DNA from: Sulfitobacter albidus
GTDB lineage: Bacteria; Pseudomonadota; Alphaproteobacteria; Rhodobacterales; Rhodobacteraceae
Assembly (NCBI RefSeq): GCF_018200035.1
Contig: NZ_CP073585.1
Coordinates: forward strand, 1 to 64,000
DNA: 64,000 bases
Reading direction: 5' to 3'
Shown one piece after another: positions 14,651 through 64,000 of this stretch (its first letter is position 1; the number at the start of each line of letters is the position of its first letter). The notes under the pieces are model-generated. The model was not told the DNA's origin, did no database searches, and worked only from the letters and a program-made list of their open reading frames with translations. A program made the translations under genes and the position numbers.

Positions 14651-14653
14651 TGG

Positions 14654-46123: not shown

Positions 46124-46935
46124 TGAGCGCATGGGTCGCCGCAGCAACAGCCGTTTTCGCCTGGTGGTTCTTCACCGGGGCGATCCTGCTGCTGGTGCGG
46201 CGGGCCGACGCAGGCAATGCTGTGGCCCACGGACGCAATGTCTTTCTCAGCGTCCCGCTTGCGGCGTTCGGCTTTGCGCTGCTGGTTGTTTCCGCACAGG
46301 CGATGAGCGTGCCAAATGCCTACGCCTCCTTCATCGCGGTCCTGCTGATCTGGGGCTGGATCGAACTGGCGTTCCTGTCGGGCGTCATCACCGGCCCCGA
46401 ACGGCGCCCCTGCCCTGCCGGGCTGACGGGTGCCGCCCGTTTTGCCCGCGCCTGGGATACCGTGTCGACCCATGAATTGCTGCTGGCCGCAGGGTTGCTG
46501 GCCGTGGCGGTCATCAGCTTTGGCGCTGAAAATGCCGTTGGTTTCTGGGCCTATCTGATCCTCTTTACTGCGCGTATCTCGGCCAAGCTGAACCTGTTTT
46601 TCGGTGTGCCACGCATCAATACCGAATTCGTGCCCGCCCCGCTGGAGCACCTGAAATCCTATTTCCGGCAAGGACCCATCACCATGGCCTTTCCCATCGG
46701 CGTGACCTTCCTTTCCGTGACGGCGGCGTGTTTTGCCGAACGTCTGATCTCTGCAGCCACACCCGCCGACGCGGTCGGGTTTGCCCTGCTCACTGCCCTG
46801 GCCACGCTCGCGGCCATTGAACACTGGTTGATGGTGGTTCCGCTGCCCGACGCCAAACTCTGGCGCTGGATGCTGCCAGCTCCCCAAACTTCTTCGACAC
46901 TGCCTTCAAGACAGGACCAGACCCATGAACTTTGA
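46123..46935 (+). CDS. puhE: PuhE, photosynthetic complex assembly membrane protein
   Basis: 270 residues with about seven membrane helices; Rhodobacter PuhE modulates bacteriochlorophyll synthesis and core assembly. Segments [14 protein letters not shown] and [36 protein letters not shown] are typical of the DUF3623/PuhE family. Starts at the acsF stop and overlaps hemA by 11 bases. Confidence 0.92.
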
Positions 46936-48139: not shown

Positions 48140-48182
48140 GCCACGCGAGGAGCGCCCGAAGGGCAGCAAGGAGCGGTGCTGG

Positions 48183-48632
48183 CTAGATCCAGCGCCGCGT
48201 CTGGCCCAGATAGGCGCGCGCCTCGTCTCCGAAAGTCGCGATCAGCAGCGCCTCTTCGCGCGCGGCAAACCGCACGTCCAGCACGCGCCACAGTGCCACT
48301 GCGGCCAGCAAACCGATCAGCGATCCATTGCCCAACGCCGACGAAACCGTCAGCATCACCAAGGCCAGATAGATCGGGTTGCGCGACAGCTTGTACGGCC
48401 CTTCGACGATCAGCGTCTTGGGGGTGTGGTGCGGCTCAATCGGGGTGCGCTTGCGCCAGAACCACCACGCCGACCAGACCACCAGCCCCAGCGCCGCGCC
48501 CAGCAGGAACGTCGACAGCAGCGACAGCGGCGCCCAATCCACATGCAGCTCCGGCAGCGCCCATTTGGCCGCATAGATCAACGCAATGGACGCGGCCCAC
48601 CAGAGCGGTGGCAGATCGGGAAACCCCTTCAC
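48183..48632 (-). CDS. Isoprenylcysteine/phospholipid methyltransferase-like membrane protein
   Basis: 149 residues, three to four membrane segments, and the motif EGPYKLSRNPIYLALVMLTV with a C-terminal FGDEARAYLGQTRRWI, the pattern of the ICMT / PEMT-like methyltransferase families. Substrate unknown; other small members act on lipids or isoprenoids. It overlaps hemC by 4 bases and is transcribed after it, so it may belong to the same transcript. Confidence 0.75.
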   Translation of the reverse strand: MKGFPDLPPLWWAASIALIYAAKWALPELHVDWAPLSLLSTFLLGAALGLVVWSAWWFWRKRTPIEPHHTPKTLIVEGPYKLSRNPIYLALVMLTVSSALGNGSLIGLLAAVALWRVLDVRFAAREEALLIATFGDEARAYLGQTRRWI

Positions 48633-49579
48633 CCCTGCCGCCAGTCAAAGAACCCCTCACCAGCCTGCGCCAGCAGCTTCTGGGCCATCACGCGGCCCGC
48701 TTCGGGGCCGTCCTCGATCGGGCAGGACATCGCGTCGTCGATGGCTTCCGACCCATCGGGGCGCAGCACTTCGCCGCGCAGGTTCAAGGTGCCGCCGTCC
48801 AACTCTGCCAGCCCCGCGATGGGGGTCTCGCAAGAGCCGTCGAGGGTCAGCAGGAACGACCGCTCCGCCGCGAGCCTCTGGCCCGTGGGCGTGTCGTGGA
48901 TCGCCTCCAGCATTTCGGCCACGCGGGTGTCGTCCACCCGCCGCTCGATCCCGATGGCGCCTTGGGCGACGGCGGGCAGCATCACGTCCGTCTCAATCGC
49001 GGTCTTTGGCACCTCATCCATGCCCAGCCGGTTCAGCCCCGCCATGGCGAGAAACGTCGCGGCGGCCACGCCCTGATCCAGCTTCATCAGGCGGGTCTGC
49101 AGATTGCCCCGGAATTCCACGACCTCCAGATCGGGGCGCTTGACCATCAGCTGCGCACGGCGGCGCAGCGACGACGTGCCGATCCTGGTCCCCTCGGCCA
49201 AATCATCCAAACCAGATGCCGTGGGCGAGATGAATGCATCGCGCACGTCCTCGCGCGGCAAATAGCAATCCAGCACCAGCCCCTCGGGCTGTAGCGTGGG
49301 CATGTCCTTCATCGAGTGCACGGCAATGTCGATTTTCGACGCCAGCATGTCCGCTTCGATCTCGCGGGTGAAAAGGCCCTTGCCGCCGATCTCTTTCAGC
49401 GGGCGGTCAATGATCTTGTCGCCCGTCGTCTTGATGACCACGATGGTGAACGCCTCGAACGGAAGATCAAAGGCATGGGCCAACCGCTCCCGCGTCTCGT
49501 GCGCCTGCGCGAGGGCCAAAGGCGATCCACGGGTGCCGATCATCAGCGGTTGGGCGGGGGTGGGCAAATTCACTGTCAT
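48629..49579 (-). CDS. hemC: Porphobilinogen deaminase (hydroxymethylbilane synthase) HemC
   Basis: Polymerises four porphobilinogen units to hydroxymethylbilane. 316 residues. GTRGSPLALAQAHETRERL at the start, DMPTLQPEGLVLDCYLPREDVRDAF in the middle and the dipyrromethane-binding cysteine in TLDGSCETPIAGLAE. Divergent from hemE with a PpsR box between them. Confidence 0.96.
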   Translation of the reverse strand: MTVNLPTPAQPLMIGTRGSPLALAQAHETRERLAHAFDLPFEAFTIVVIKTTGDKIIDRPLKEIGGKGLFTREIEADMLASKIDIAVHSMKDMPTLQPEGLVLDCYLPREDVRDAFISPTASGLDDLAEGTRIGTSSLRRRAQLMVKRPDLEVVEFRGNLQTRLMKLDQGVAAATFLAMAGLNRLGMDEVPKTAIETDVMLPAVAQGAIGIERRVDDTRVAEMLEAIHDTPTGQRLAAERSFLLTLDGSCETPIAGLAELDGGTLNLRGEVLRPDGSEAIDDAMSCPIEDGPEAGRVMAQKLLAQAGEGFFDWRQG

Positions 49580-49678: not shown

Positions 49679-50712
49679 ATGACTGCCCAGAAAACCATCC
49701 TCCGCGCCCTTGCCGGGGAAACGCTTCCCACGCCACCCATCTGGATGATGCGCCAGGCCGGGCGCTACCTGCCCGAATACCGCGCCACGCGGGCGCAGGC
49801 GGGGGATTTCCTGTCGCTGTGCTATAACCCCGACCTCGCCGCCGAGGTGACGCTGCAGCCGATCCGCCGCTACGGATTCGATGCCTCGATCCTGTTTGCC
49901 GACATCCTGCTGGTGCCGCAGGCGCTGGGGGCCGATCTGTGGTTTGTGACCGGCGAAGGCCCGCGGTTGAGCACGATCACCACGCAGGAAGAATTCGACA
50001 AGCTGGTGCCGCCCGACGCCATTCACGACCACCTTGCCCCCGTCTACGAAACCGTGCGCATCCTGTCGCGGGAGTTGCCGTCAGAGACGACGCTGATCGG
50101 ATTTGCCGGGGCGCCGTGGACCGTGGCGACCTATATGATCGCCGGGCGCGGCACGCCCGACCAAGGCCCCGCGCACGCGCTGAAGGCCGAGAACCGCGCG
50201 GTGTTCGACGCGCTGATGGACCGGATCACCGAGGCCACGATCCACTACCTCTCCGCGCAGATCGACGCGGGCGCCGAGGTGGTGAAGCTCTTCGACAGCT
50301 GGGCGGGCTCGCTCACCGGAGCGGATTTCATGGACTACTCAATCAAGCCCATGGCCCGGATCACCGCCGCCCTGCGGGCAAAGCACGCGCACGTGCCGGT
50401 CATCGCCTTTCCGCGCGGTGCAGGCGAGCGATACGTCGGCGCACATCAGGCGATCGGCGCGCAGTGTATCGCGGTGGATGACGCCGTCGACGCCGCATGG
50501 ATGGCCGAACATGTGCAGCCAGGCGGCTGCGTTCAGGGCAATCTGAAGTCCTCCCACATGGTCACGGGTGGAGATGATCTGGTGTCCGAGACGCGCCGAA
50601 TTGTGGATGCGTTGAAGGGGGGCCGCATATCTTCAACCTCGGCCACGGGATCACGCCGGACGCGGATCCTGAGAACGTACAATTGATGATCGACACGGTG
50701 CGCTCCGCGTAA
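49679..50712 (+). pseudogene. hemE: Uroporphyrinogen decarboxylase HemE, frame broken near the 3' end (probable base-call indel)
   Basis: Decarboxylates uroporphyrinogen III to coproporphyrinogen [34 protein letters not shown], and [11 protein letters not shown] are present. The frame is normal to DALKGG, then a six-G run at 50617-50622 shifts it and it stops at 50686 after a 19-residue unrelated tail. One frame over, [20 protein letters not shown] and on to VRSA with TAA at 50712 is the normal HemE end; adding one G restores 344 residues. A true loss of hemE function is unlikely unless the chromosome has another copy. Confidence 0.9.
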
Positions 50713-50740
50713 ATCGTTCTTAATCAATATGTTGTGGATG

Positions 50741-50763
50741 CCCTCCCCCATCGCTGGGGAGGG
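50741..50763 (+). terminator. Hairpin after hemE
   Basis: CCCTCCCC (50741-50748) and GGGGAGGG (50756-50763) form an 8-bp stem with a 7-base loop followed by TTTCG. It lies between convergent hemE and parB and its right arm shares two bases with the first parS-like site. Confidence 0.6.
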
Positions 50764-50778: not shown

Positions 50779-51870
50779 TCAGGGTTTTTCGAGCAGATGG
50801 GCAAGCTCGGCCATGACCGAATCCATCAAATCCCCGTCCAATCCCTTCCCTTCGAAACGGATCAGGTAGCCGCGCGAATCCGTGCTGCGCCGCAGGGTGA
50901 TCCCGCTCGACAGCACCAGCGTCTGCGCGTCCTGCCAGCCGACGTCGGCCTTGCTGGGGCGGCCACCCTTGCGCGGATCGCGGGTGGCTTTGCCCTTGGC
51001 CTCGATGGTCGCGATCACCTCCTCCAGCAGGCGCCATTCGGCCGCCGGATCAATCCCCTGCCCCGTCGCCAAAGCGGTGCGCAGCGCCCCGTGTGCCCCG
51101 CTCCGAAGCGCCCCCGCGAGCTTGAGCCCCTCGCGCTCCTTGAGCGCTTCGGGAAAGCTCAGAAGATCGCCAAGTTCCTCAAAGATCACGGCGAAGGAGC
51201 GGATCTTGCTCCGCTTGGCCTTGGAGGCCGCGGGAAAGAGCCCGGCGACCGCCGCCTCGACAGAGGTATAAGCGCCCTGCTGCGCGGCGATCACCGCAAT
51301 ACGGCCGCGTTCGAAATGGCTGAGATTGGCGCGGATTTCGTTCTCCTCGACCATCGCGGCAAAAGCGCCGCCCATGGCCTCAGGCTCGCGCAGCAGCGCC
51401 TTGATGCGGGCGGGCGCCCTGCCCTCTCCGGCGAGCGCCTGCACGGCACGCAGACGCCGGTAGCCGGACAGCAGACCGTAGCGCGGACCATCTGTGTCGG
51501 AGAGCGCGTAGACCTCGATGGGCAGGCGCAGGCCGGTGCTGGCGATGGAGGCTTTAAGCTCTTCCATTTCCTCGGCGTCCAGAACTGTGCGGTCGCGGAC
51601 CATGGCATCGGCGACGATCTCATCGAGCGGCAGATCGAGCACCACGCGGCCCTCGGCCAGCGCGGCCCGGTGGGCACCGGCATCACTGGCATCGCGGGCG
51701 CGTTCGGCGCGCAGGGCGGGGTCCTCCGGCGTGGCGGATTGCGCGGCTTCCCCGGCCACCTGACTGATCGGCGCGGCCATCGGACGGGCGGGGGTTTCGC
51801 GGCGAAACTCCTCTTCGATGCGCGCAAGGTCCGCCGCGTCGGGGGCTTCGAGTTTTCTACGCTTCGCCAT
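50779..51870 (-). CDS. parB: Plasmid partition protein ParB
   Basis: Centromere-binding CTPase-type partition protein. 363 residues from ATG 51870; the frame continues upstream inside parA. ParB N-domain VVLDLPLDEIVADAMVRDR, CTP-binding GLLSGYRRLRAVQAL, EENEIRANLSHFERGRIAVIA, and a helix-turn-helix-rich centre, then a C-terminal region with GKATRDPRKGGRPS. Overlaps parA by 14 bases. Should bind the parS-like palindromes. Confidence 0.92.
   Translation of the reverse strand: MAKRRKLEAPDAADLARIEEEFRRETPARPMAAPISQVAGEAAQSATPEDPALRAERARDASDAGAHRAALAEGRVVLDLPLDEIVADAMVRDRTVLDAEEMEELKASIASTGLRLPIEVYALSDTDGPRYGLLSGYRRLRAVQALAGEGRAPARIKALLREPEAMGGAFAAMVEENEIRANLSHFERGRIAVIAAQQGAYTSVEAAVAGLFPAASKAKRSKIRSFAVIFEELGDLLSFPEALKEREGLKLAGALRSGAHGALRTALATGQGIDPAAEWRLLEEVIATIEAKGKATRDPRKGGRPSKADVGWQDAQTLVLSSGITLRRSTDSRGYLIRFEGKGLDGDLMDSVMAELAHLLEKP
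51793..51809. promoter_or_regulatory. parS-like site 2 (inside parB)
   Basis: GGTTTCGCGGCGAAACT, differing from the two other copies by the last base and the centre. It lies in the N-terminal coding part of parB. Confidence 0.7.
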
Positions 51871-53263
51871 CTTTTGCCTCCTTCGCGGCTTGCTCTGCCA
51901 ATTGCTGATCGCGCCACCAGGTGCCCAGCAACACGGTCTTGATCTCGGCCCATGTCTGATCAAACGCCTCGCGCCCGCGCACGTAGGTGTCGCGGTTGAA
52001 GTCACGGTAATCGGCTTCGTAGATGCCGTTCACCTGCTCCCCCGCCTGCCCGACCATGGCGGTGACTTCCTGCCGGTAGGTGGCCATGAAATCCCCGAAA
52101 TAGGCCTGAATGACATTCGCCAGATCGGTCTGCTGGCCCGCATCAAAGCGGGTGATGAGCGCGCGCACGGCGTCCCATTCGAACTTCACCTCGGGCAATC
52201 CTTCGCGACGACGTACGGAATTCTCGCCGTCCTCGATGCTGGCAAAGGTCGAATAGAGCATATCAAAAAACCGCCCCGTGCTGTCGAATTCGAGGAACGA
52301 CGCGCCCAGAGGCACCACGAGGATATCCGCTGCGGCCAGTGCGTTGATCGTCAGATAGCCAAGGGCAGGGGGCGTATCGAGCAGGATGATGTCGTAATCG
52401 TCGAGTATCTTTTCGTCCTCGAGCGCGCGGGTCAGGGCATCCCACAGGGGCCAGTTGCGCAGCTGCATGCGCCACACGGGGACCTGAAATTCGGCCCAGT
52501 AGAGGTTCAGCTGTGCGCCGATCAGATCGATATTCGGCCAATGGGTCGGCTGGATCAGGTTTCGCGGCGAAACCTCAAGGCTTTCGGTTAATGTTTCGTC
52601 AAGCGGGAGTTCGGTGATGCCCGCCGCGCGGCGCACGCTGTTTTCGGCCTGCACGTGGCGGGCGTAGTCCTTGGCCAGCAAGGGGAAGGCGGTGGACCAT
52701 TCGTCGGGCACGTCACCGCCCATGATCGAGGTCATGGAGCCCTGACTGTCGAGGTCGATCACCAGCACGCGGTAGCCGTCGAGGGCGGCGGACATCGCCA
52801 GATGCGCGGCGGTGGAGGTTTTGCCCACGCCGCCCTTGAAATTCGCCACGCTGATGACTTTGGCGGGCAGGCCTTCGGGGCGCCAGGACTTGTAGCTGCG
52901 GTTGGCAGCCCCCTCGGCGGCAAAATGGTCGCGCAGGGCCAGAACGTCTTCGAGGGTGAACCAGCGGGAATTACCCTCGCCCGTGCCCTGCGGTAGATCG
53001 GGATGCGCCTTGAGCACGCGGCGCAGATGGGCGGGGGCGACGTTCAGAAGGTAGCGGCAGACCTCCCACGTGGAGAATTTGCGCAGCCGCTTGCGCCCGT
53101 CCGGGGCGTAGCCGCGTTTGGCCAGATCGTCGCGCCCACGCGCGGCAAATGCAGCGGCTTTTGCGAATCGCGCGGTGTCGATAGGGTCAGACAGCGTCTG
53201 CGCGGCCTGTTCAGGGTTGATGTTGAAATAGGCGGGCGGGTCGCTCTTGGGGGGTGTTGCCAT
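51857..53263 (-). CDS. parA: Plasmid partition ATPase ParA
   Basis: Type Ia ParA ATPase that positions plasmid copies with ParB. 468 residues: an N-terminal DNA-binding region (about 1-130, with TWEVCRYLLNVAPAHLRRVLKAHP) that may repress the par operon, then deviant Walker A VANFKGGVGKTSTAAHLA near residue 140, VIDLDSQGSMTS and the Walker B-like IILLDTPPALGYLT. Divergent from rep across the putative origin. Contains a parS-like site at 52558. Confidence 0.95.
   Translation of the reverse strand: MATPPKSDPPAYFNINPEQAAQTLSDPIDTARFAKAAAFAARGRDDLAKRGYAPDGRKRLRKFSTWEVCRYLLNVAPAHLRRVLKAHPDLPQGTGEGNSRWFTLEDVLALRDHFAAEGAANRSYKSWRPEGLPAKVISVANFKGGVGKTSTAAHLAMSAALDGYRVLVIDLDSQGSMTSIMGGDVPDEWSTAFPLLAKDYARHVQAENSVRRAAGITELPLDETLTESLEVSPRNLIQPTHWPNIDLIGAQLNLYWAEFQVPVWRMQLRNWPLWDALTRALEDEKILDDYDIILLDTPPALGYLTINALAAADILVVPLGASFLEFDSTGRFFDMLYSTFASIEDGENSVRRREGLPEVKFEWDAVRALITRFDAGQQTDLANVIQAYFGDFMATYRQEVTAMVGQAGEQVNGIYEADYRDFNRDTYVRGREAFDQTWAEIKTVLLGTWWRDQQLAEQAAKEAKDGEA
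52558..52574. promoter_or_regulatory. parS-like site 3 (inside parA)
   Basis: GGTTTCGCGGCGAAACC, a 17-base palindrome apart from the central base, same arms as site 1. It lies inside the coding sequence for the ParA C-terminal half. Confidence 0.75.
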
Positions 53264-53764
53264 GATACCTCGGGGATGTGCGTGTTTTTATGGGATGTTC
53301 GTGTAAATGTCGCACATCCGGGGCGTCATGTGAATCATTTCTCGAACCTATTCCCGTATTAGAGCCTAATCGGAAAAAGCAGCAGACAGTAAAGTTGTAG
53401 AGTCTTTGTAGATCTATAGAATCTTTGGCTTAAATTGTGTAGTTTGAATCAACATCTTGCGGGTAATCCGGTGCCCGATTGCGGGATGAGGGGGCGCTGC
53501 ATACGGGGGGAAGGGGACCCATCTGCGGGATAAGGCGGCCTGATTCGCGGGGGGAAGAGCGCCTGGACCCGGTTTTGCCCACGGTAGACCCTATTTTGCG
53601 AATCTGTGGAGAGTCGTGCGCGGGTGCTGTCCCGTAGATGGGTTCCTTTTGTCCCGGCAACTCTCCCGCAGAACGGTACCTTTGCGACGCTTGTTCGGAG
53701 GAACCTTTCGGCGCATACTGGGCAAAAGTCAGAGCGTGTGCACACGCCAGCCGAGGTGAATGAG
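53264..53764. other. Putative replication origin region between parA and rep
   Basis: No gene in 500 bases. The left part (53341-53450) is AT-rich for this replicon and carries TAGAGTCTTTG (53398-53408) and TAGAATCTTTG (53417-53427), 19 bases apart. The middle holds iteron-like GCGGGATRAGG and CGGGGGGAAG repeats (53460-53560) and an inverted pair GGGACCCATCTGCGGGA (53514-53530) / TCCCGTAGATGGGTTCC (53630-53646; 15 of 17 match). The right part has GGNNCCTTT-like repeats at 53641, 53676 and 53700. Fits an iteron-type plasmid origin next to its initiator gene. Confidence 0.65.
53734..53747. promoter_or_regulatory. Palindrome in front of rep
   Basis: GCGTGTGCACACGC is a perfect 14-base palindrome 17 bases upstream of the rep ATG. 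Iteron-type initiators often bind such a repeat as dimers to limit their own synthesis, so it is a candidate operator. Confidence 0.5.
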
Positions 53765-54955
53765 ATGAGCAAGCAGCCCGCCCGTGCAGAGATCGACCGA
53801 GCCACGCTGACCGGGGCACTGCGCCGGGATGCGGTCAAGAAACACGTGGGCGCGATCCATGTGTCGGGCAAGCTGACGCTGTTGCAGCGCAAGCTGTCGA
53901 ATGTGCTGCTGCTGAATGCCTATGACACGCTGACCAGCCAGCAGACCCATGTGATTGACGCGCGTACGCTGTGTCTGATGGTGGGCTATAACTCCAACGA
54001 CATGGACACGCTCAAGGCGTCGTTGCGCGGGCTGGCGGAGACGGTGGCGGAGTGGGACATGCTGGATGCCAAGGGCGAGCAAGAGTGGGGTGTGTCGAGC
54101 CTGCTGAGCTATGCCAAGCTGAAGGGGGGCGTGTGCGAATATGCCTACTCCCCGGCGCTGGCGGAAAAGCTGAACGACCCGAAGGTCTTTGCGCTGATCA
54201 ACCTCAATATTCAGCGCAGCTTCACCTCGGGGCACGCGCTGGCGCTTTATGAGAACTGCTATCGTTTCGTGCGCACGGGCAGCACGGGGTGGTGGTCGCT
54301 CGATCTCTTTCGCCGTCTGATGGGCGTGGCCGACAGCAGCTATTACGAGGTCTACAAGCACCTCAACGCCAAGATCATCAAACCGGCGGTGGCGGAGGTG
54401 AACAAGACGTCGAACATCGTGATCCGGCCAGAGATCCGCAAACGCGGGCGGGCGGTGACGGATATCCGTTTCCTGATTGAGCAGAACCCGCAGCTGTCGA
54501 TCATGAATATCGACGACGGGGCAGGGCTGCGGCAAATGCCGGTGTACGGTCAGCTGCGGGAGCTGGGGGTGAGCGACCGTCTGGCGCGGCAGTGGCTGGG
54601 GGCGCACGGGGAGGACTACGTGCGCGAAAAGCTGGACTATGTGGCGGGGCAGGGGGGGGTAAGCAATCCCGTGGGCTATCTCACGGCGGCGCTGCGCGAG
54701 GATTACGCGCGGCCGCAGGAGGTGGCGGCGGAGCTGACCCCGGCGCAGCGCACACGGGCGGCGCGGCTGAACAGCCTGCAGGCACGCATCGCCGCGCGCA
54801 CGCCGACGCAGCGCGACGTAGACCGGCGCGCCTTTGCCAGCCGGATCAAGGACGCGGCGGCGCGCGATGATTTTGAGCGGCACGGCTGGATGTCGGCGTT
54901 GAATGCCGACGCGATCTGGGCGTTCTGGGAGGAGCTGTCGCCGGAAGAGATCTAG
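53765..54955 (+). CDS. repB: Plasmid replication initiator (RepB-type, Rep_3-like)
   Basis: 396 residues from ATG 53765, preceded by GAGGTGA; the frame is open upstream but no ribosome site is seen there. GAIHVSGKLTLLQRKLSNVLLLNAYDTL, MVGYNSNDMDTLKASLRGLAETVAEWDM, INLNIQRSFTSGHALALYENCYRF and STGWWSLDLFRRLMGV fit the two-winged-helix initiators of alphaproteobacterial plasmids. Replicon type in the Roseobacter scheme is probably RepB; that naming needs a search. Its stop overlaps the bchO stop by 4 bases in convergent orientation. Confidence 0.85.
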   Translation: MSKQPARAEIDRATLTGALRRDAVKKHVGAIHVSGKLTLLQRKLSNVLLLNAYDTLTSQQTHVIDARTLCLMVGYNSNDMDTLKASLRGLAETVAEWDMLDAKGEQEWGVSSLLSYAKLKGGVCEYAYSPALAEKLNDPKVFALINLNIQRSFTSGHALALYENCYRFVRTGSTGWWSLDLFRRLMGVADSSYYEVYKHLNAKIIKPAVAEVNKTSNIVIRPEIRKRGRAVTDIRFLIEQNPQLSIMNIDDGAGLRQMPVYGQLRELGVSDRLARQWLGAHGEDYVREKLDYVAGQGGVSNPVGYLTAALREDYARPQEVAAELTPAQRTRAARLNSLQARIAARTPTQRDVDRRAFASRIKDAAARDDFERHGWMSALNADAIWAFWEELSPEEI

Positions 54956-55800
54956 GCGTCGAGGATGATCTGCGCGATCCGCTCGGGCGCTTCTTCGTGT
55001 GCGAGATGACCGAGGTCGGGCAGGGCCTGGTGATCCAGCCCCGGAACGCGTTCGGCCACGCGGGCGGAAGTGGCGGGTGGTACGGCGCGATCCTTGGCCG
55101 CTGTGATCAGCAGCCCCTGCGCGCCGCTGTCGGGCAGCCGTTTCAGCAGCGGGTCGAGATCCCATTGCGCCATCATTTGCAGTGTCGCGTTGACGTGGCC
55201 GCGATCGCCGACCAGCGCGCGGTAGTGGCGCTGATCCTCGGGCGGCAGGGTCGATCCGGTGCCTGCGATCAGCCGCTGCACCGATTTGGGATTGGCGTTT
55301 TGCGCGGTGAAAAAGGCGGCGACGCCGGGCATCAGGGCCAGCCCTTTGGCCATCAGCGGGAAAAGCACGCCGGCAAGGCCGGAAAACCCGGCAAGCGCCG
55401 CGTTCAGGCCGATGATGCGCGGGGCAGGGGCGGGCAGATGGTCGATCAATTCCAGCGCTATGGCGCCACCTGCGGAATGGCCGAGGATCGTGCGGGGATG
55501 CCAGCCCTCCTGCGCGCAAAGGGCGGCGATGTCCTGCGCCATGGGCACCAGCCCGCAGCGGTTTTGCGCGCCAAGCCGGGTGAAGCCCTGACCGGGCAGG
55601 TCAATCGCAATGACACGGTACTGCGCGGCCAGCAGGGGCATCAGGTGGCGAAAGCTTTGCGTGGCGCCGCCCGCGCCGTGCAGCAGCAGCATCAGGGGGC
55701 CGTCGCCCATTTCCTGCACATGCCAGTGGTGCGGTTTGCTGTGCACAAACCGCGAGTGAACGGCGTGGGGCCAGTCGTGCTTGTGACGGGTCCAGTCCAC
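54952..55800 (-). CDS. bchO: BchO, alpha/beta hydrolase of the magnesium chelatase operon
   Basis: 282 residues, alpha/beta hydrolase fold. Nucleophile elbow GHSAGGAIAL (Ser near residue 109), oxyanion region LLLHGAGGATQSF, and catalytic His in DLGHLAHEEAPE. A putative magnesium-chelatase accessory protein with no proven reaction. Last gene of crtA-bchI-bchD-bchO; four bases after bchD. Confidence 0.92.
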   Translation of the reverse strand: MDWTRHKHDWPHAVHSRFVHSKPHHWHVQEMGDGPLMLLLHGAGGATQSFRHLMPLLAAQYRVIAIDLPGQGFTRLGAQNRCGLVPMAQDIAALCAQEGWHPRTILGHSAGGAIALELIDHLPAPAPRIIGLNAALAGFSGLAGVLFPLMAKGLALMPGVAAFFTAQNANPKSVQRLIAGTGSTLPPEDQRHYRALVGDRGHVNATLQMMAQWDLDPLLKRLPDSGAQGLLITAAKDRAVPPATSARVAERVPGLDHQALPDLGHLAHEEAPERIAQIILDA

Positions 55801-55804
55801 GGCG

Positions 55805-57409
55805 CTAGGGCTCTAACGTGGCGGTCACGGCGTCCGACAGGCGGCGCGCGTCGGCGCGGGGCAGCGCGAGGTAGTGGCCGCCCATCTGTGCCGCAAGCGT
55901 GGCCAGCGCGCGTTCGGGGCGGCGGCCGGTGTCGATCACCATCGTGTCGATGCCCGCGGCGCGCAGGGCGAGGCCCGCGCGCTGTGCCTCCTGCGCCGCG
56001 CGCGCGCGGTCCGGCGTGCCGTCGAGGGTCATATTCGCGCGCCCGTCCGTGAGCGCGATCACCGTGGGGCTAAGGCCCCGGCGGCGCGCGGCGAGGGCGA
56101 GTTGATGCGCTTCTTGCAGGCCGGCGGCAAGGGGGGTGGCGCCGCCGCCGGGCAGGGCGGCAAGCTTGCGTTTGGTTTGCACGAGGCTGCGGGTCGGCTC
56201 CAGCAGGGTCTCGGCGCCGGTGCCGCGAAAGGCGATAAGGGCGACGTGATCGCGTCGGGCGTAGGCCTCGGCCAGCAGAAGCTCGATCGCGCCTTTCGCC
56301 TCGCCCATGCGGGCCATCGCGGCGGAGCCGGAAGCATCCACGGCAAAGATCAGCAGCCGGTCAGAATGATCCTGATAGCGTTTGCGCCGCAGATCACCCG
56401 CGCGGATGTGCGGGCCTGTCTTGCCCGGCGTTTGCGCGCGGCGCAGTGTTTGCCACGGCACGGCGGCGCGCAGGGTGGCGATCAGATCAACGCGGGCGTT
56501 CGTGTCGCCGTTTTGCCGCGCGGCCAGGGGGCGGCCCCGGCGATTGCCGGTCTTGGGCTGGCCCGCGCCGCTGCCGGTGGCGCCGCGCTGCGCGTGGCCT
56601 GCCAGCTGGGCCAGCAGATCGGGGGGCAGGGCGGCCTTGACCGCGTCGAGCAGCATCTCATCTGGGATTTCCGTGCGGTTTTGCGGCTCCTGATCGGGGG
56701 TCTCATCGGGTGCGTCGGGTTCGGGCGCCTCGTCAGAGGGAAGCTGCGTGGCGCGGTGGGCGAGGGTGAGGGCTGCGGCGGCGGAGATGTCGTCGTCGGT
56801 TGCCATTTGTCGTTGGTTCAGGGCGGCGTGGGCGCGGGTGGCGCGCAGGGCAAAGCTCGCCGCGCGCAGGCTCTCGATGCCGAGCCGCACGCAGAGCGCC
56901 ACCAGCGTTTCGGCCAGATTCTCCGGCAGAGTGACAGCGTCAAGCGGGAGGGATGCGCTGGCGGTATCAAAGGGCGCGATCTCGGCCAGCGTGACCTGCG
57001 ACAGATCCACGCCAAAGGCGAGGCGGTCGGCCAGCGTGGCGGGCAGGGTTTCGTCGTCGATCCCCTCGTCCAGCGCGATGAGCGTGTGGCCGCTGCCCGC
57101 GTCCAGCGCCGAAGCGAGCCGGGCTGCGAGGTAGCCCGACGCCCGTTCGGCCATCGGCAAGATGAGCGTGCCGGGGGTGTCCAACAGCCCGCGCGTGCGC
57201 GTGAGCGTCCCCGCGCCCAGCGTCGCGGTCACGTCGAGCCCGCCGTCGAGCGCGTCCGGCCCCATGCCGGGGTGCAGGCGTGTGGCGGTCAGGGTGCCGA
57301 CGACCGCGTCGCGGGCGGGGCAGGGGCGGGCGCGCAGATGCAGACCGCCCAGACCCGGATCGAGCCGCAGCAGCGCGAGCGCCGTATGGGCACGCGCGAG
57401 CGGGGTCAT
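55805..57409 (-). CDS. bchD: Magnesium chelatase subunit BchD
   Basis: Platform subunit linking the BchI ATPase ring with BchH. 534 residues: an AAA+-like N-terminal half without a good Walker A, an acidic proline-rich linker (DEAPEPDAPDETPDQEPQNRTEIPDE, about 215-240) and a C-terminal integrin-I/VWA domain with the MIDAS motif DASGS (AVDASGSAAMARM, about residue 355). Overlaps bchI by 4 bases. Confidence 0.95.
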   Translation of the reverse strand: MTPLARAHTALALLRLDPGLGGLHLRARPCPARDAVVGTLTATRLHPGMGPDALDGGLDVTATLGAGTLTRTRGLLDTPGTLILPMAERASGYLAARLASALDAGSGHTLIALDEGIDDETLPATLADRLAFGVDLSQVTLAEIAPFDTASASLPLDAVTLPENLAETLVALCVRLGIESLRAASFALRATRAHAALNQRQMATDDDISAAAALTLAHRATQLPSDEAPEPDAPDETPDQEPQNRTEIPDEMLLDAVKAALPPDLLAQLAGHAQRGATGSGAGQPKTGNRRGRPLAARQNGDTNARVDLIATLRAAVPWQTLRRAQTPGKTGPHIRAGDLRRKRYQDHSDRLLIFAVDASGSAAMARMGEAKGAIELLLAEAYARRDHVALIAFRGTGAETLLEPTRSLVQTKRKLAALPGGGATPLAAGLQEAHQLALAARRRGLSPTVIALTDGRANMTLDGTPDRARAAQEAQRAGLALRAAGIDTMVIDTGRRPERALATLAAQMGGHYLALPRADARRLSDAVTATLEP

Positions 57410-58413
57410 GCGCCCAGCACGTCTTCGACGATGCGGGCGACGCGGGTGTCCGACCCGGCCTCGTCCAGTGGGTCGCGGCGCATGCGGTGGCGCAGGGCGA
57501 GCGATGCGGTGTCGCGGATGTGGCTGCGGCCGAGTGCAGTGGCGCCCTCAAACGCGGCATGGGCGCGGGCGGCCTTGAGCAACGTCAGCTCCCCGCGCAG
57601 CCCGTCCGAGCCAAGTGCGACGCAGAGTTCGGCCACGTCGATCAGGCTTTGTTCCGTGGTCTCAAGCGCGTCGAGCGCCGTGCGCGCGGCCACGATCCGG
57701 TCACGCAGCAGGCCATCCTCGGCGCGCCAGCGCAGCATGAAGGATTCGTGCTCCCGCTCGTAGGCGTCGCGGCGTTTGATGACCTCGACCCGTTGGGCGA
57801 TATCCGTGGGGGAGGCGACATCGACCGACAGGCCAAAGCGGTCGAGCAGCTGCGGGCGCAGTTCGCCCTCCTCCGGGTTGCCGGAGCCGACCAGCACAAA
57901 GCGCGCGGGATGGCGGATCGACAGGCCTTCGCGCTCGACGACGTTCTCGCCCGATTGCGCTACGTCGAGCAGCAGATCGACGATGTGATCCTCCAGCAGG
58001 TTGACCTCGTCTATGTAGAGATAGCCACGGTTGGCCTGCGCCAGAAGGCCGGGCTGAAAGGCCTTTTCGCCCTTGGTCAGGGCCTTTTCGATGTCGAGCG
58101 CGCCGGTCACGCGGTCCTCTGACACGCCCAGCGGCAGATCGACGACCGGCGTGGGGATGGTGTGCAGCGTGGTGCCGCTGACGCCCGCCCAGCCGGGGCT
58201 GTCTGCGGCGGTGGCGGCGTTAACGGGGCAGCCCTTGAGCGCCTTGATCGGCGGCAGCAGGGCGGCCAGCGCGCGCACGGCGGTAGATTTGCCGGTGCCC
58301 CGGTCGCCAAACACCAGCACCCCGCCGATGGAGGGATCAATCGCTGTGAGGATCATCGCGCGTTTCATCGCGTCTTGCCCCACGATGGCGGAAAAGGGGA
58401 AGGGATGTTTCAT
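57406..58413 (-). CDS. bchI: Magnesium chelatase ATPase subunit BchI
   Basis: AAA+ ATPase driving Mg insertion. 335 residues from ATG 58413 (MKHPFPFSAIVGQDAMKRAM). Walker A GDRGTGKSTAVRAL, Walker B GYLYIDEVNLLEDHIVDLLLDVA and sensor region VLVGSGNPEEGELRPQLLDRFG. Overlaps the crtA stop by 4 bases. Confidence 0.96.
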   Translation of the reverse strand: MKHPFPFSAIVGQDAMKRAMILTAIDPSIGGVLVFGDRGTGKSTAVRALAALLPPIKALKGCPVNAATAADSPGWAGVSGTTLHTIPTPVVDLPLGVSEDRVTGALDIEKALTKGEKAFQPGLLAQANRGYLYIDEVNLLEDHIVDLLLDVAQSGENVVEREGLSIRHPARFVLVGSGNPEEGELRPQLLDRFGLSVDVASPTDIAQRVEVIKRRDAYEREHESFMLRWRAEDGLLRDRIVAARTALDALETTEQSLIDVAELCVALGSDGLRGELTLLKAARAHAAFEGATALGRSHIRDTASLALRHRMRRDPLDEAGSDTRVARIVEDVLGA

Positions 58414-59111
58414 GCGGGTTCCTTGGCGGTCAGGGGGGAGCGGCCCTCCCAGCTGCCATGATCTGACAGGAGGATAAAACGGGCGTAGAGTTCTTCGGCA
58501 AACCAGCCGTGATCGCGCACGGCGCGAATGGCCTCGGCGTGCGGGCCGGTGCGGGCAAAGGCATTCATCGCGGCCACGTCGGGCCAGATGGAAAACGTGA
58601 CCTGATGCAGCAGGGGCACTTCGCCGATGCCGATCTTGAACATCACGGCGGGGTCCTGGCCGATGCGGGCCGAGATGTTGGGCACGCGGCCCCAGAATTT
58701 GCGCGCGATGCCCGGTTTGATCGTGGCGCGGGTCAGCGCGGCGATGGGGCCGTCGGCGATGCGGTCGGTGGTCTGGAACGGGGTCTCGCCCGACCAATGC
58801 CCGCGCGCGTCGGTGGCGCGCAGCATCACGGTCCAATCCTCTATCGCGCGGGCGCGGTAGCGGGCGAACACGCCCGAAGCGGTCGCGGCGCGGGCCGTCG
58901 CCTCATCGGGCCAGGTGGCGAGGATGGCGTAGACCGACCAGTTGGGGCCGGGGGTGAACCCCTCGCCCGTGCCGGTGCCGCAGAGTTTCCAGAACCCGAT
59001 GCCCGGCGTGCGCGCCATGCCGCGCCGCGCCAGCCCCATCTGCGCGAACGCCCAAAGGCGCGCGGAAAGGCTGCCGAAGCGGTAAAAGCTGAGGCTGACC
59101 ACCTGTTGCAT
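58410..59111 (-). CDS. crtA: Spheroidene monooxygenase CrtA
   Basis: Oxygen-dependent monooxygenase introducing the 2-keto group to make spheroidenone, the pink carotenoid of aerobic phototrophs. 233 residues from ATG 59111 (MQQVVSLSFYRFGSLSAR); an upstream TTG at 59138 would start in the PpsR box. GMARTPGIGFWKLCGTGTGEGFTP and the C-terminal WFAEELYARFILLSDHGSWEG are family hallmarks. First gene of crtA-bchIDO, divergent from crtI. Confidence 0.94.
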   Translation of the reverse strand: MQQVVSLSFYRFGSLSARLWAFAQMGLARRGMARTPGIGFWKLCGTGTGEGFTPGPNWSVYAILATWPDEATARAATASGVFARYRARAIEDWTVMLRATDARGHWSGETPFQTTDRIADGPIAALTRATIKPGIARKFWGRVPNISARIGQDPAVMFKIGIGEVPLLHQVTFSIWPDVAAMNAFARTGPHAEAIRAVRDHGWFAEELYARFILLSDHGSWEGRSPLTAKEPA

Positions 59112-59132
59112 CGGTCGAGGAATCCCTATGGC

Positions 59133-59204
59133 TGTCAATCAAGGTTTACATATTTATCGATTGCTGGGAAGGGTTGACGCAAAGATTGTAAATCAAACTA
59201 GACA
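59133..59204. promoter_or_regulatory. Two PpsR boxes between crtA and crtI
   Basis: TGTCAATCAAGGTTTACA (59133-59150) and TGTAAATCAAACTAGACA (59187-59204), both exact TGT-N12-ACA, 36 bases apart. They should control the divergent crtA-bchIDO and crtIB-tspO units. Confidence 0.9.
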
Positions 59205-59221
59205 TCTGCTAGGCTCATCAA

Positions 59222-60775
59222 ATGAAAGACTCAGCATATTCAGATCACGGCGATCCCGCGTCGCGGGCTATCGTCATTGGCGCGGGCCTAGGCGGGCTGG
59301 CGGCGGCCATGCGGCTGGGTGCCAAAGGCTATGCGGTGACAGTGCTGGATCGGCTTGACCGGGTCGGCGGGCGCGGTAGTTCGATCACGCAAGAGGGGCA
59401 CCGGTTTGATCTGGGCCCCACCATCGTGACCGTGCCGCAGGTGTTCGAGGATCTGTGGCGCGCCTGCGGGCGGGATTTCCACGCCGATGTGACGCTCAAA
59501 CCGCTTGATCCATTCTACGAGGTGCGCTGGCCCGATGGCACGCGGTTCAACGCCTGTGGCGATGACGACCGGATGTTTGACGAGGTGCGGCGCATCGCGC
59601 CCGGCGATCTGAAGGGATACAAGCGTTTCCTGCGCGACAGTCACGCCCGCTATGTCGTGGGATTTGAGGGGATGGTCGCCAAGCCGATGCACCGCCTCTG
59701 GGAGACGATCAAGGTGCTGCCGAAATTCGCGCAGCTGCGCGCGGATCGGTCGATCTATGCCCATGTCGCCACGCGGGTCAAAGACGAACGGCTGCGCATG
59801 GCGCTGTCGTTTCATCCGCTGTTCATCGGGGGTGATCCGACGCATGTGACCTCGATCTACGCGCTGGTTGGGCATCTGGAGAAAACCTATGGCGTGCATT
59901 ACGCCATCGGCGGGGTGCAGGCGATTGCCGATGCCATGGCCGATGTGGTGCGCGCGCAGGGCGGTGTGATCCTGCACGGGGCGGAGGCCGACGAGATTAT
60001 CGTCGAGCGCGGCGCCGCACGTGCCGTCACACTGACCGACGGCACCCGCATGGAGGCGCCCCTGATCGTGAGCAACGCGGACGCGGGCCACACCTACACC
60101 CACCTGATGCGCAACGTGAAAAAACGGCGGTGGACCGCGCCGAAGCTGCGGCGCAAACGGTGGTCGATGGGGCTTTATGTCTGGTACTTCGGCACAAAGG
60201 ACACGGCCGGCATGTGGCCCGATCTGGGGCACCATACCATCGTGAACGGTCCGCGCTTTACCGGGTTGTTGCGCGATATCTTCATGCGCGGCAAGCTGTG
60301 CGACGACATGAGCCTTTACATCCACCGCCCGGCGGTGACCGATCCGACGGTCGCGCCTGCGGGGGACGATAGTTTCTACGTGCTCTCCCCGGTGCCGCAT
60401 CTGGGCTGGGACACCCCCGTCGATTGGCAGACCGAGGCGCCAAAATACCGCGAAAAGGTCGCCGCCGTGCTCGACGCGCATATGCCCGGCTTTCGCGACC
60501 GCATCGTGACCGAAACGGAATTCACGCCCGAGACGTTCCGCGACCGCTACCTGTCGCCCCACGGTGCGGGCTTCTCGCTTGAGCCGCGGATCCTGCAATC
60601 GGCGTGGTTCCGGCCCCATAACGTGAGCGAAGAGGCGCGGGGGTTGTTCCTCGTCGGCGCCGGCACGCATCCGGGGGCGGGGCTTCCCGGTGTGGTGTCG
60701 AGCGCGGAGGTGCTGGGCAAGCTGGTGCCCGATGCGCCGCGCGTGCCCATCGACCTGCCCCTGGCCGCCGAATAA
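59222..60775 (+). CDS. crtI: Phytoene desaturase CrtI
   Basis: FAD-dependent desaturase converting phytoene to neurosporene (three steps) in spheroidene producers. 517 residues. N-terminal AIVIGAGLGGLAAAMRLGAKGYAVTVLD, GGRGSSITQEGHRFDLGPTIVTVP, and the C-terminal FLVGAGTHPGAGLPGVVSSAEV carotenoid-desaturase signature. crtB follows after 13 bases. Confidence 0.96.
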   Translation: MKDSAYSDHGDPASRAIVIGAGLGGLAAAMRLGAKGYAVTVLDRLDRVGGRGSSITQEGHRFDLGPTIVTVPQVFEDLWRACGRDFHADVTLKPLDPFYEVRWPDGTRFNACGDDDRMFDEVRRIAPGDLKGYKRFLRDSHARYVVGFEGMVAKPMHRLWETIKVLPKFAQLRADRSIYAHVATRVKDERLRMALSFHPLFIGGDPTHVTSIYALVGHLEKTYGVHYAIGGVQAIADAMADVVRAQGGVILHGAEADEIIVERGAARAVTLTDGTRMEAPLIVSNADAGHTYTHLMRNVKKRRWTAPKLRRKRWSMGLYVWYFGTKDTAGMWPDLGHHTIVNGPRFTGLLRDIFMRGKLCDDMSLYIHRPAVTDPTVAPAGDDSFYVLSPVPHLGWDTPVDWQTEAPKYREKVAAVLDAHMPGFRDRIVTETEFTPETFRDRYLSPHGAGFSLEPRILQSAWFRPHNVSEEARGLFLVGAGTHPGAGLPGVVSSAEVLGKLVPDAPRVPIDLPLAAE

Positions 60776-60788
60776 GGAAAGAACCGCG

Positions 60789-61820
60789 ATGATCCGACCC
60801 GACGATCTTGATCATTGCCGCGCGGTCATCCGCACCGGCAGCCTGTCGTTCCATGCAGCCTCCCGGCTGTTGCCCGCCTCGGTGCGCGATCCGGCGCTGG
60901 CGCTTTACGCCTTTTGCCGCCTGGCCGACGATGAGGTGGATGAGGGCAACGCCAAGGGCCGCGCGGTGATTGACCTGCAGGAACGGCTCGATCTGGTCTA
61001 CGCGGGCACCCCGCGCAACGCGCCCGAAGATCGCGCCTTTGCCGCCATTGTCGAGACCTATCAGATGCCGCGCGCGCTGCCCGATGCGCTGCTCGAAGGG
61101 CTGGCGTGGGACGCGGTGGAACGCCGCTATGCCAGCCTGTCGGAGGTGCGCGGGTATTCTGCGCGGGTGGCAAGCGCGGTGGGCGCGATGATGTGCGTGC
61201 TGATGCGGGTGCGTGACGGCAACGCGCTGGCGCGGGCCTGCGATCTGGGGGTGGCGATGCAACTGACCAATATCGCCCGCGACGTGGGCGAGGACGCGCG
61301 GGCGGGCCGGATCTATCTGCCGACCGATTGGCTGGACGCGGCGGGGATGGAGGTCGACGACTTCTTAAGCGCGCCGACGGCCACGCCCGAGGTACGGCGC
61401 ATGGTGCGGCGCCTGCTGGCCGAGGCGCGCAGGCTCTACATCCGGTCAGAGGCCGGGATCGGTGCGCTGCCGATGGGCGCGCGCGCCGGGATCTTTGCCG
61501 CGCGCTATGTCTATGCGGGGATCGGCACAGCCGTGCGGCGCAACGGGTTCGACAGTATCGGCCCGCGCGCGCGGACCTCCAAGCTGACCAAGCTGGGGTT
61601 GATGGGCAAGGCGGGATTGCGCGCTGGCGCCACGCTGGCCCTGCCGCGCTCGCCGGTGATCTATGCCAAACCACTGGCGGAAGTGGCGTTTTTGGTCGAC
61701 GCGGCTGCGGACGCCCGCACCGCCCCGCCGGGGCGCATGGATGGGCTGGTCGAGGTGATGGCGGCCCTGCGCGCGCGCGAAAACGGGCGCGATGGCAGCC
61801 ATGGGGTGGCCGCGGAGTAG
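60789..61820 (+). CDS. crtB: Phytoene synthase CrtB
   Basis: Condenses two GGPP to phytoene, the entry to carotenoids. 343 residues from ATG 60789; the frame is open upstream in crtI. Asp-rich motifs YAFCRLADDEVDEGN and MQLTNIARDVGEDARAGRIYLP are present. Followed after 21 bases by tspO. Confidence 0.96.
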   Translation: MIRPDDLDHCRAVIRTGSLSFHAASRLLPASVRDPALALYAFCRLADDEVDEGNAKGRAVIDLQERLDLVYAGTPRNAPEDRAFAAIVETYQMPRALPDALLEGLAWDAVERRYASLSEVRGYSARVASAVGAMMCVLMRVRDGNALARACDLGVAMQLTNIARDVGEDARAGRIYLPTDWLDAAGMEVDDFLSAPTATPEVRRMVRRLLAEARRLYIRSEAGIGALPMGARAGIFAARYVYAGIGTAVRRNGFDSIGPRARTSKLTKLGLMGKAGLRAGATLALPRSPVIYAKPLAEVAFLVDAAADARTAPPGRMDGLVEVMAALRARENGRDGSHGVAAE

Positions 61821-61841
61821 CCGCGCCCCATATCCCTTCCC

Positions 61842-62315
61842 ATGGACACCACATTATTCTTCCTTTTTCTGATCGCCTGCAGCGCAGCCGGCGCCACCGG
61901 TGCCGCTTTCCCGCCGGGTGCGTGGTATGACACCCTGCGCAAGCCGTGGTTCACGCCGCCGGATTGGGCGTTTCCCGTCGCTTGGACGACAATCTATCTG
62001 TTGATTTCTTTCGCAGGTGCGCGGGTCGCGGTGGTCGAGGGGAATGCCTACGCCCTCGCGTTCTGGGCGGTGCAGGCGGGGTTCTCCACGCTCTGGACGC
62101 CGCTGTTCTTTGGTCTGCGGCTTATCCGAAATTCGCTGTTCGCCATGGCCCCCTTATGGCTCGCCGTGCTTGGGTGTACGGTTACCCATTTTCAGCTCGA
62201 TTTTTGGGCAGGGCTTGCTTTCGTACCCTACCTCGCATGGGTCACAGTGGCTGCGGCACTTAATGTGGCGATGTGGCGGCTCAACCCGGATGTCCCTCCG
62301 CTACGAAGGTCGTGA
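61842..62315 (+). CDS. tspO: Tryptophan-rich sensory protein TspO (CrtK)
   Basis: Five-helix outer-membrane protein of the TspO/PBR family that negatively affects photosynthesis gene expression in Rhodobacter. 157 residues. Trp/Pro-rich loop WYDTLRKPWFTPPDWAFPVAWTTIYLLIS and the fifth helix pattern AWVTVAAALNVAMWRLNP. Usual place next to crtB. The 140 bases to the convergent crtC stop hold no gene or clear terminator. Confidence 0.94.
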   Translation: MDTTLFFLFLIACSAAGATGAAFPPGAWYDTLRKPWFTPPDWAFPVAWTTIYLLISFAGARVAVVEGNAYALAFWAVQAGFSTLWTPLFFGLRLIRNSLFAMAPLWLAVLGCTVTHFQLDFWAGLAFVPYLAWVTVAAALNVAMWRLNPDVPPLRRS

Positions 62316-62455: not shown

Positions 62456-63399
62456 CTAGTCGGAAAAGCGCCAACGTCGCCTTCGGGGAACGCGCACGGC
62501 CAGCATCGGTTTCAGTAGGGGCTGCTTGTAGCGGTCGAGGTCGAGCGCCTCGTGCACGCCCTGCACAGATTCTCCACCGATCTGTGTCTGCACGACCGAG
62601 CGGGAATAGAAAGGCGCGTCCAGCATCGGTTTGATCTGGCGCGGGGTGGTTCCGGGATCGGCGCGGGTTTCGCGGCGCAGCGCCCAGAGGGTGCGTTTGA
62701 AGGCTGTGCGCGGGGGGGCGTCGACCATGCGCGCAGTGCCGTCGGGGGCAAAGGCGATGGCGGCATCCAGCGCCGTCCCATCGCGTCGGTCCGCGTCGTA
62801 GAAACAGGTCGCTCCTGCGCTTGTCGGGTATCGTCCCCAGGTCCAGTAGCTGAAATCATGCTCCAGCGGGCGCGTACCGAAGTTCGCGTCGAAGTAGCCG
62901 TGGCCGGACCATTGCCAGCCGGGGGCCTCCAGCGCGACCTCGATCCGGCTGGAGGGGGCGAAGGGGCGCCAGACGTGGGCGCCGTCGCGGGTCAGCGGTA
63001 ATTCCACTTCTGTGACCGCCTCGGGGTGCACAGTGATGCGCCCGCGCATGCGGGAGATAAGTGGCAGGGAGGAAATCTCATCGATGTTGATTTCAAGCGC
63101 GTCGCCCGTCCAGCGCATGGAGGAGGGGCCAACGGTCAGCGTGTCGGGCTCCGCGCGCAGGGCACCCTCTCCCCGGTCGGTCATGGCAAAGCGTCCGCCG
63201 GGCCCGTAGGTCGCCACGTTGATGCAGCAATTGTCCGCCGGATTGCCGCGCCCGGACCAGTGAAACCAGGGCGAGAACACAGAACCGATGAAGCCGATGA
63301 CCGAAACTGCGAAGCCGCCACAATCGCTTACGCCGTCGACATACCACCAAGCGTAGCCGCCCGCAGGGACGTCGAGGTTAAATGCAGGTCGGCGCTCAT
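62456..63399 (-). CDS. crtC: Hydroxyneurosporene synthase (carotenoid 1,2-hydratase) CrtC, start not identifiable
   Basis: Adds water to the 1,2 double bond of neurosporene. The protein reads FNLDVPAGGYAWWYVDGVSDCGG, VIGFIGSVFSPWFHWSGRGNPADNCCINVATYGPGGRFAMTDRG, and ends near SVVQTQIGGESVQGVHEALDLDRYKQPLL. About 310 residues. In its frame there is no ATG, GTG or TTG between 63676 and the YAWW segment. The nearest ATG (63397-63399) lies one frame over and joins only with a one-base insertion. The first 70 bases overlap the crtD tail in another frame. Identity is sure, the 5' end is not. Confidence 0.85.
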
Positions 63400-64000
63400 C
63401 GCCGCGGCCGCATGGGCGGCGGAGAGCGTCGCCATCGGCACCCCCGCCCCCGGGTGCGCCCCGCCCCCGGCCAGATACAGGCCGGGCATCGTCGTGCGGG
63501 CCGTCGGGCGCTGGAATGCGGCCATCATCCCCTGCGGGGATCGCCCGTAGAGCGACCCGGTCGAGCCCGGGAACAGTTCCGCGAAGTCCTGCGGCCCCGT
63601 CAGTCGATCCAGATCCGGCGCGGGGCTGAAGCGCAGACCGAAGGCCGCCAGCCGTTTGAAGATCAATGTCTGACATGCGGAAGGCTCCTGTGGCGAATGG
63701 GGAAGAGGCGGGGCGTTGAGAATGATCTCGAACCGTTCGGTGCCGCGGGGTCTCGCGCCGCCAAAGCGGTCCTGGGCGCAGATGTAGAGGGTGGGATCGG
63801 TTTGCGCCGCACCACGGGTGAGCGGTGCGTATTCGGACTGCGGATCATCGGCGAAAAAGACGTTGTGTGCCGCAAGCGCGTAGTCGCCTGCCACGTCGGC
63901 GGCGAATGCAAACACCTGTGCGGACAGGCTGCGGGGGGTCGTCCCCGAAGGTTTGACGGCGTCGCGGCTCGCATGACCCAAAAGTCCTTCGCTCAGCGCG
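63328..64000 (-). CDS. crtD: CrtD C-terminal part, runs off the right edge
   Basis: About 224 codons of the C-terminal half of the 3,4-desaturase whose N-terminus lies at 1-388. AAHNVFFADDPQSEYAPLTRG, TLYICAQDRFGGARPRGTERFEIILNAPP and the desaturase signature YLAGGGAHPGAGVPMATLSAAHAAAAM are characteristic of CrtD. It ends ATLGGMSTA with TAA at 63328-63330, overlapping the crtC frame. Together the two parts give about 353 codons; a full CrtD has about 495, so roughly 0.4 kb would be missing between window ends. Confidence 0.92.
   Translation of the reverse strand, partial: ALSEGLLGHASRDAVKPSGTTPRSLSAQVFAFAADVAGDYALAAHNVFFADDPQSEYAPLTRGAAQTDPTLYICAQDRFGGARPRGTERFEIILNAPPLPHSPQEPSACQTLIFKRLAAFGLRFSPAPDLDRLTGPQDFAELFPGSTGSLYGRSPQGMMAAFQRPTARTTMPGLYLAGGGAHPGAGVPMATLSAAHAAAAMSADLHLTSTSLRAATLGGMSTA

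Follow-up and report, generated by a model that had tools for sequence, protein, structure and literature searches.

The window analysed here is a stretch of 64,000 nucleotides from Sulfitobacter albidus. It represents bases 1-64000 of a separate contig of 64,458 bp (contig C5 of genome G000), and 458 bases of that contig lie outside it. The contig carries a bch/crt/puf/puh set on a replicon apart from the chromosome. The photosynthesis genes and their neighbours are arranged as follows:

1-403, minus strand: crtD, N-terminal part, continuing over the circle join from contig base 64458
506-1387, plus strand: crtE, then crtF to 2517
2647-7735, plus strand: bchC, bchX, bchY, bchZ
7731-10610, plus strand: pufQ, pufB, pufA, pufL, pufM, pufX
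10786-12738, plus strand: dxs
12924-16839, minus strand: idi, bchP, BCD-family MFS transporter, bchG
16992-17468, plus strand: c-type cytochrome
17520-18362, minus strand: B12-binding protein, second AerR/PpaA-like
18537-30402, minus strand: cargo genes
30270-32463, minus strand: ppsR and a ppaA-like gene, with a possible frame change in ppaA near 31.82 kb
32725-42661, plus strand: bchF, bchN, bchB, bchH, bchL, bchM, lhaA; frame change in bchB near 35.69 kb
42689-48139, plus strand: puhA, puhB, puhC, small orf, acsF, puhE, hemA
48629-49579, minus strand: hemC (PF01379, E 1.7e-77)
49679-50686, plus strand: hemE, which changes frame near 50.62 kb in comparison with relatives
54952-58413, minus strand: bchO, bchD, bchI; bchO ends earlier at its C-terminus than in those relatives that were read
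58431-62315: crtA (minus strand), crtI, crtB and tspO (plus strand)
62456-63331, minus strand: crtC
63328-64000, minus strand: crtD, C-terminal part; the remaining middle is in contig bases 64001-64458

The puf operon is of the PufX type, with pufX after pufM instead of pufC. PufX is recognized within 10302-10610 (PF11511, E 8.7e-21), and no pufC match is found on the contig. Among the genome contigs searched, PufL and PufM are found on this contig only. A plus-strand open reading frame at 48063-49076 was considered for hemC and rejected, as this frame is antisense to hemC. The contig has 18 copies of the motif TGT-N12-ACA, the PpsR/CrtJ box, against 5.55 expected; none of 100 shuffled sequences reaches 18. 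Ten of the 18 are in or at the crtD-crtE, crtF-bchC, bchG-cytochrome, ppaA-bchF, hemC-hemE and crtA-crtI gaps.

The cargo encodes a DctMQP-type TRAP transporter, two SDRs, a PF04199 cyclase, a ChsH2-like protein, a thiolase domain, an AMP-forming ligase (CoA ligase) and a fused 767-aa Rieske oxygenase-reductase. This catabolic cargo sits between the cytochrome c gene and ppsR (window 17520-30402). The region is collinear in the closest relative found, a contig of 64,988 bp (G012:C6), and has no blastn alignment in G057:C10. At 29800-30402 there is a 200-aa minus-strand open reading frame that has no Pfam, NCBIfam or PADLOC match.

The original prediction was that the window is a nearly complete circular photosynthesis plasmid of about 64.4 kb, cut within crtD at both edges, and this is borne out by the contig. 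Window 63328-63999 (minus strand) encodes the C-terminal part of CrtD, 223 residues and the stop, and window 2-403 (minus strand) the N-terminal part. About 0.4 kb encoding the middle of CrtD had been expected before base 1 is reached. The true figure is 458 bases, and these encode the middle of CrtD. When base 64458 is joined to base 1, CrtD residues 13-194 (R. litoralis numbering) align gapless in a single frame, and no base is missing or doubled. The join also restores the anticipated canonical order tspO-crtC-crtD-crtE, which matches that of R. litoralis save for an outer-membrane gene there. That the edges join into one crtD gene holds as far as the gapless, in-frame join is concerned, but the gene is interrupted by one in-frame stop and changes frame twice, with all three lesions confined to the final ~265 contig bases. 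No exact overlap of 15-399 nt was found between the contig ends. Judged from its sequence, C5 is taken to be circular because the contig end abuts the start exactly. Two collinear relatives close by exact end overlap, of 77 nt in G057:C10 and 95 nt in G009:C3. The former, a contig of 52,052 bp, thereby becomes a circular RepB-III photosynthesis plasmid of ~51,975 bp.

The plasmid reading is supported by the separate 64,458-bp contig, the gapless join, the presence of its own rep/parAB, the genome's only detected reaction-centre genes, and the collinear relatives. Some relatives have the cluster on a large contig, e.g. the 1.65-Mb contig of G001, where the place beside bchO holds none of the replication units sought, and a chromosomal cluster with both window edges inside crtD by chance might be envisaged here as well. 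This is extremely improbable, as the contig stops 458 bases past the window, its two ends meet in a single crtD frame, and it encodes its own replication and partition proteins. Neither two separate crtD genes nor chromosomal flanks, the findings that would have contradicted the prediction, were encountered.

A linear plasmid with its ends in crtD has to be considered because the contigs of G000 (C5), G012 (C6) and G057 (C10) are all opened inside crtD, and G052:C33, which starts ~100 bp before crtC, apparently is too. In addition, the R. litoralis replicon is termed linear in PMC6739100, yet its record is circular. Linearity is nevertheless very improbable: the C5 ends abut without a gap, G057:C10 is closed by its exact overlap, and G009:C3 is opened in hemE instead. 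Moreover, windows at most ~400 bp from the breaks in the C5, G012 and G057 contigs are among the most GC-rich and most structured. On C5, window 64101 ranks 9 for GC and 13 for folding of 645; the window on the join itself has a folding rank of only 176 of 645. In G012, ~36 crtD codons are in neither contig end.

The contigs of the genome are 3,441,674, 192,820, 87,586, 73,622 and 64,458 bp in length, and a ParA-family match above cut-off is present on all four of the smaller contigs. The joins of C4 and C2 serve as a control on how the assembly ends its contigs. Joined C4 ends encode a DndC-like protein (profile match residues 18-400, join at residue 372). Joined C2 ends encode a Gfo/Idh-type protein (match residues 91-171, join at ~residue 108), in which the profile is matched from position 39 only and the N-terminal part of the protein is unmatched. 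One frame of 189 residues runs across the C3 join, and the C1 join reads through but the frame changes near it. The DndC-like protein of C4 (73.6 kb) belongs to a DNA phosphorothioation system. A 16S search of the genome gave no match, and the same search also failed in 5 of 14 control genomes.

In the assembly, the reading frames of crtD, bchB, hemE and perhaps ppaA are interrupted relative to those of relatives. The changes are more suggestive of assembly errors than of decaying photosynthesis, because a stretch of chromosome shows similar frame changes. In 40 kb of chromosome with a G012 counterpart, a frame-change signature is present in 2 of 18 genes (one clear, one weaker; 21,066 coding bases). 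The same script reports 1 of 39 genes on C5 (44,052 coding bases), which is an undercount, as hemE, crtD and ppaA on C5 are missed. If the cluster were decaying, crtD, bchB, hemE and perhaps ppaA would be true pseudogenes, as their change of frame relative to relatives could suggest. This is unlikely in view of the chromosomal signature, the C1 join, which is disturbed as well, and the PpsR-type boxes, which remain enriched on C5.

A rep/parAB module had been placed between hemE and bchO, and a complete replication and partition unit is present there at 50,779-54,955:

50779-52005, minus strand: parB of the RepB-I unit, 61% to ParB of RepB-I plasmid CP085156
51857-53263, minus strand: RepB-I parA, 94% to that of Sulfitobacter sp. 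S190 NZ_CP081124.1
53264-53605: parA-rep gap, candidate origin region, with short two-copy direct repeats
53606-54955, plus strand: rep, RepB-I type initiator, Rep3 family (PF01051, E 6.1e-20)

In rep, parA and parB the unit has its closest match on the 78-kb plasmid of S190. Rep matches that of the 78-kb plasmid of S190 at 83% and that of CP085156 at 76%. ParA matches the same two at 94% and 86%, and that of the D. shibae 72-kb plasmid at 83%. Against the RepB-III plasmid CP085162, the values are 29% for Rep and 30% for ParA. The replicon names are those given in PMC9025767, where CP085156 is named RepB-I and CP085162 RepB-III, both in one strain, and in PMC9426580, where the D. shibae 72-kb plasmid is RepB-I. 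On the basis of similarity, the C5 unit is RepB-I, alike to the named RepB-I plasmids. Nothing on C5 matches the DnaA-like rep of R. litoralis, and the DnaA-like I ParA of that species is only 35% to the C5 ParA; thus C5 is not a DnaA-like I photosynthesis plasmid. Lacking RepB-III rep/par genes, it is not a RepB-III photosynthesis plasmid either. By analogy with these families, the RepB-I initiator would replicate C5 at the candidate origin between parA and rep, and ParAB would partition it.

The unit is at the conserved position beside bchO, as described in PMC6052148 and PMC6739100, with its orientation reversed. The position rule is not universal: according to PMC6739100, three published Jannaschia plasmids are without an inserted unit. 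Within the genus, 62 genomes were compared and 19 including G000 encode a BchO that is genuine as judged by score, split into pieces in two of them; G034 and G041 are left out of the slot count as not judgeable. The slot is occupied by a RepB-III unit in G012, G050, G009, G057 and G052 (n=5), by a DnaA-like I unit in G037, G038, G021, G058 and G018 (n=5), by a divergent DnaA-like unit in G044 (Sulfitobacter sp. S190) only, and by a RepB-I unit in G000 only. Within the sequence read, the slots of G001, G054, G059, G042 and G002 (S. alexandrii) have none of the unit types sought. Thus at least four replicon types are found in the slot within one genus. In the five RepB-III holders, Rep is 77-79% and ParA 80-82% to those of RepB-III plasmid CP085162, and ~30% to RepB-I.

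Orientation also sets C5 apart. All 11 other genus genomes with a unit display the order bchO-parB-parA-rep (G018 was read in two pieces), and C5 alone has bchO-rep-parA-parB. In named genomes, which are partly the same as those of the genus set, the common orientation is shared by all 16 loci where a par or par/rep unit adjoins bchO; three of these are cut before rep (L034, L043, L071), and L096, with parB alone, is left out of the count. In L034, a Sulfitobacter MAG contig, the RepB-III type parB beside bchO (5787-6122) appears shortened before the contig end. Only its residues 264-334 are matched, adjoining the end of parA.

The comparison with G012:C6 places the replicon difference precisely. 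The two contigs are collinear over their whole length, with 67-84% nucleotide identity in the aligned blocks, and the sole unaligned gap of more than 0.5 kb is the slot, C5 50,713-54,981. Within it, C5 50,762-54,958 forms one block, at 77% nucleotide identity, with the unit of the S190 78-kb plasmid. The limits of homology to G012 and to S190 combined narrow the boundaries of the exchanged unit to about 50 bp on the left and 24 bp on the right:

50713-50761: left boundary; G012 homology ends at 50,712 and S190 RepB-I homology starts at 50,762
54959-54981: right boundary, within the final codons of bchO; homology to S190 stops at 54,958 and homology to G012 restarts at 54,982

A careful tree of seven cluster proteins, which includes 12 of the 23 rows of a quick tree, shows C5 and G012 as sisters (100/100). 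The node that unites these two with the four other RepB-III holders has support of 85/85 in the careful tree and an SH-aLRT of 95 in the wider quick tree. A clade of the RepB-III holders without C5 is rejected (AU p 1.1e-4); the group for this test was set by replicon type, but tested after the quick tree was seen.

C5 is very probably a circular photosynthesis plasmid of 64.5 kb whose RepB-III unit was replaced by an inverted RepB-I unit. The C5 lineage would once have had a RepB-III unit in the gap where bchO and hemE converge with their 3' ends. This would then have been replaced, in reverse orientation, by a RepB-I unit like the one on the S190 plasmid without a photosynthesis cluster. The exchanged segment would reach from shortly beyond the stop of parB to that of rep; bchO would lose part of its end, and the neighbouring operons would stay in place. 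Cointegrate formation, or illegitimate recombination of plasmids resident in the same cell, is the probable route.

The contig and its join, the gene content, the replicon types, the boundaries, the orientation and the sister relation to G012 are directly observed. The direction from RepB-III to RepB-I is the most economical reading and rests on parsimony; because the uniting node has only 85/85, two separate gains of RepB-III are conceivable. RepB-I would then be ancestral, with RepB-III gained once in G012 and once in the other four holders, and C5 would keep the old unit. This is distinctly unlikely. It requires more changes, and the S190 and DnaA-like outgroups do not have RepB-I in the slot. 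Also, a newly arrived unit would be expected to show what is seen in C5, namely inversion and a truncated bchO beside it. The bchO-hemE gap might function as a socket for replication units, from which at least four replicon types have run the cluster within one genus. By switching units, the cluster would be able to persist alongside a plasmid of its own compatibility group or to avoid being displaced by it, and C5 versus G012:C6 would represent such a switch with the rest collinear. This proposal is about as likely as not.

A wider search looked for RepB-I beside bchO in 394 genomes of the family (Rep at E <= 1e-80, bchO at E <= 1e-40). Rep is found in 70, bchO in 163 and both in 24, counted by eye. 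Among these 24, the two are adjacent in C5, on the same contig 87 and 128 kb apart in two genomes, and on different contigs in 20; in G347, no bchO is present within the 12 kb read around its Rep. No other case of RepB-I adjoining bchO was thus detected in the 394 genomes, in which contig breaks could hide cases. In a collection where 135 bchO loci were confirmed and 80 kept, units of three types were sought within 6 kb of bchO. There are 14 loci with DnaA-like-type par or par/rep, two with the RepB-III type (L035, L034) and one with parB alone. RepB-I is found in none, 61 have no unit of the three types (the shortest sequence being 812 bp after bchO), and two end at bchO and are not judgeable. 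Searches of open-licence papers, covering listings and selected passages, turned up no report of a RepB-I photosynthesis plasmid.

RepB-I together with photosynthesis genes is not unique to C5, because G309:C6, a contig of 362,173 bp from another genus, carries both. Its RepB-I type unit is complete and is possibly that of a RepB-I chromid. As in C5, cluster and unit are on one contig, but the cluster is uninterrupted at bchO and the unit is 87 kb away. G297:C26 (166,130 bp) has a broken RepB-I type rep, with no ParA detected, 128 kb from an uninterrupted cluster; the broken rep is perhaps the scar of an integrated plasmid.

The other three plasmid-sized contigs of the genome are C2-C4. C2 carries a divergent DnaA-like unit (G000:C2:2001-9000), with a ParA stretch that is 85.5% to that of the S190 photosynthesis plasmid (tblastx). 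A similar divergent DnaA-like replicon therefore runs the photosynthesis plasmid in S190 and another plasmid in G000. In the stretches read of C2-C4 there is no RepB-III unit, and ParA is at most 33% to RepB-III. Incompatibility as a present-day driver of the exchange is thus unsupported; a RepB-III partner plasmid may have been present in this lineage in the past.

Plasmid-borne photosynthesis gene clusters of Roseobacteraceae are already known, as the original prediction pointed out for R. litoralis and S. guttiformis, and C5 belongs to them. It differs in the type and orientation of its unit. PMC6739100 and PMC6052148 give DnaA-like I as the replicon type of the photosynthesis plasmids published so far, and RepB-III for that of S. 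guttiformis. Roseobacter litoralis pRLO149_94 and R. ponti p1 resemble C5 in having a plasmid-borne cluster with a replication unit beside bchO, but are 93.6 and 100.9 kb in length and have pufC instead of pufX; the R. litoralis unit is DnaA-like I according to PMC6052148. The RepB-III photosynthesis plasmids of Sulfitobacter are closer. They share with C5 the location of hemE/hemC near bchO and the gap that holds the unit, and G012:C6 and G057:C10 are collinear with C5. Their order, however, is bchO-parB-parA-rep-hemE, in contrast to the inverted RepB-I unit of C5, and G057:C10 is only ~52 kb and without most of the C5 cargo. The 78-kb plasmid of S190 (NZ_CP081124.1) shares the RepB-I rep/par unit over the aligned C5 50,762-54,958, but in S190 the photosynthesis cluster belongs to a different plasmid, of 145,674 bp, whose unit is divergent DnaA-like. 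Among the plasmid-borne photosynthesis clusters compared here, the inverted, sharply bounded RepB-I replication unit is new.

Plasmid transfer has been invoked to account for the patchy distribution of photosynthesis in Roseobacteraceae. A replacement of DnaA-like I by RepB-III is proposed in PMC6052148, from the identical position in two Sulfitobacter clusters and a cluster tree. C5 and G012 provide a second replacement, readable between sister plasmids, which involves another replicon type in reversed orientation and has boundaries defined to tens of bases. With this, replicon switching on a photosynthesis plasmid becomes testable by curing and incompatibility experiments.
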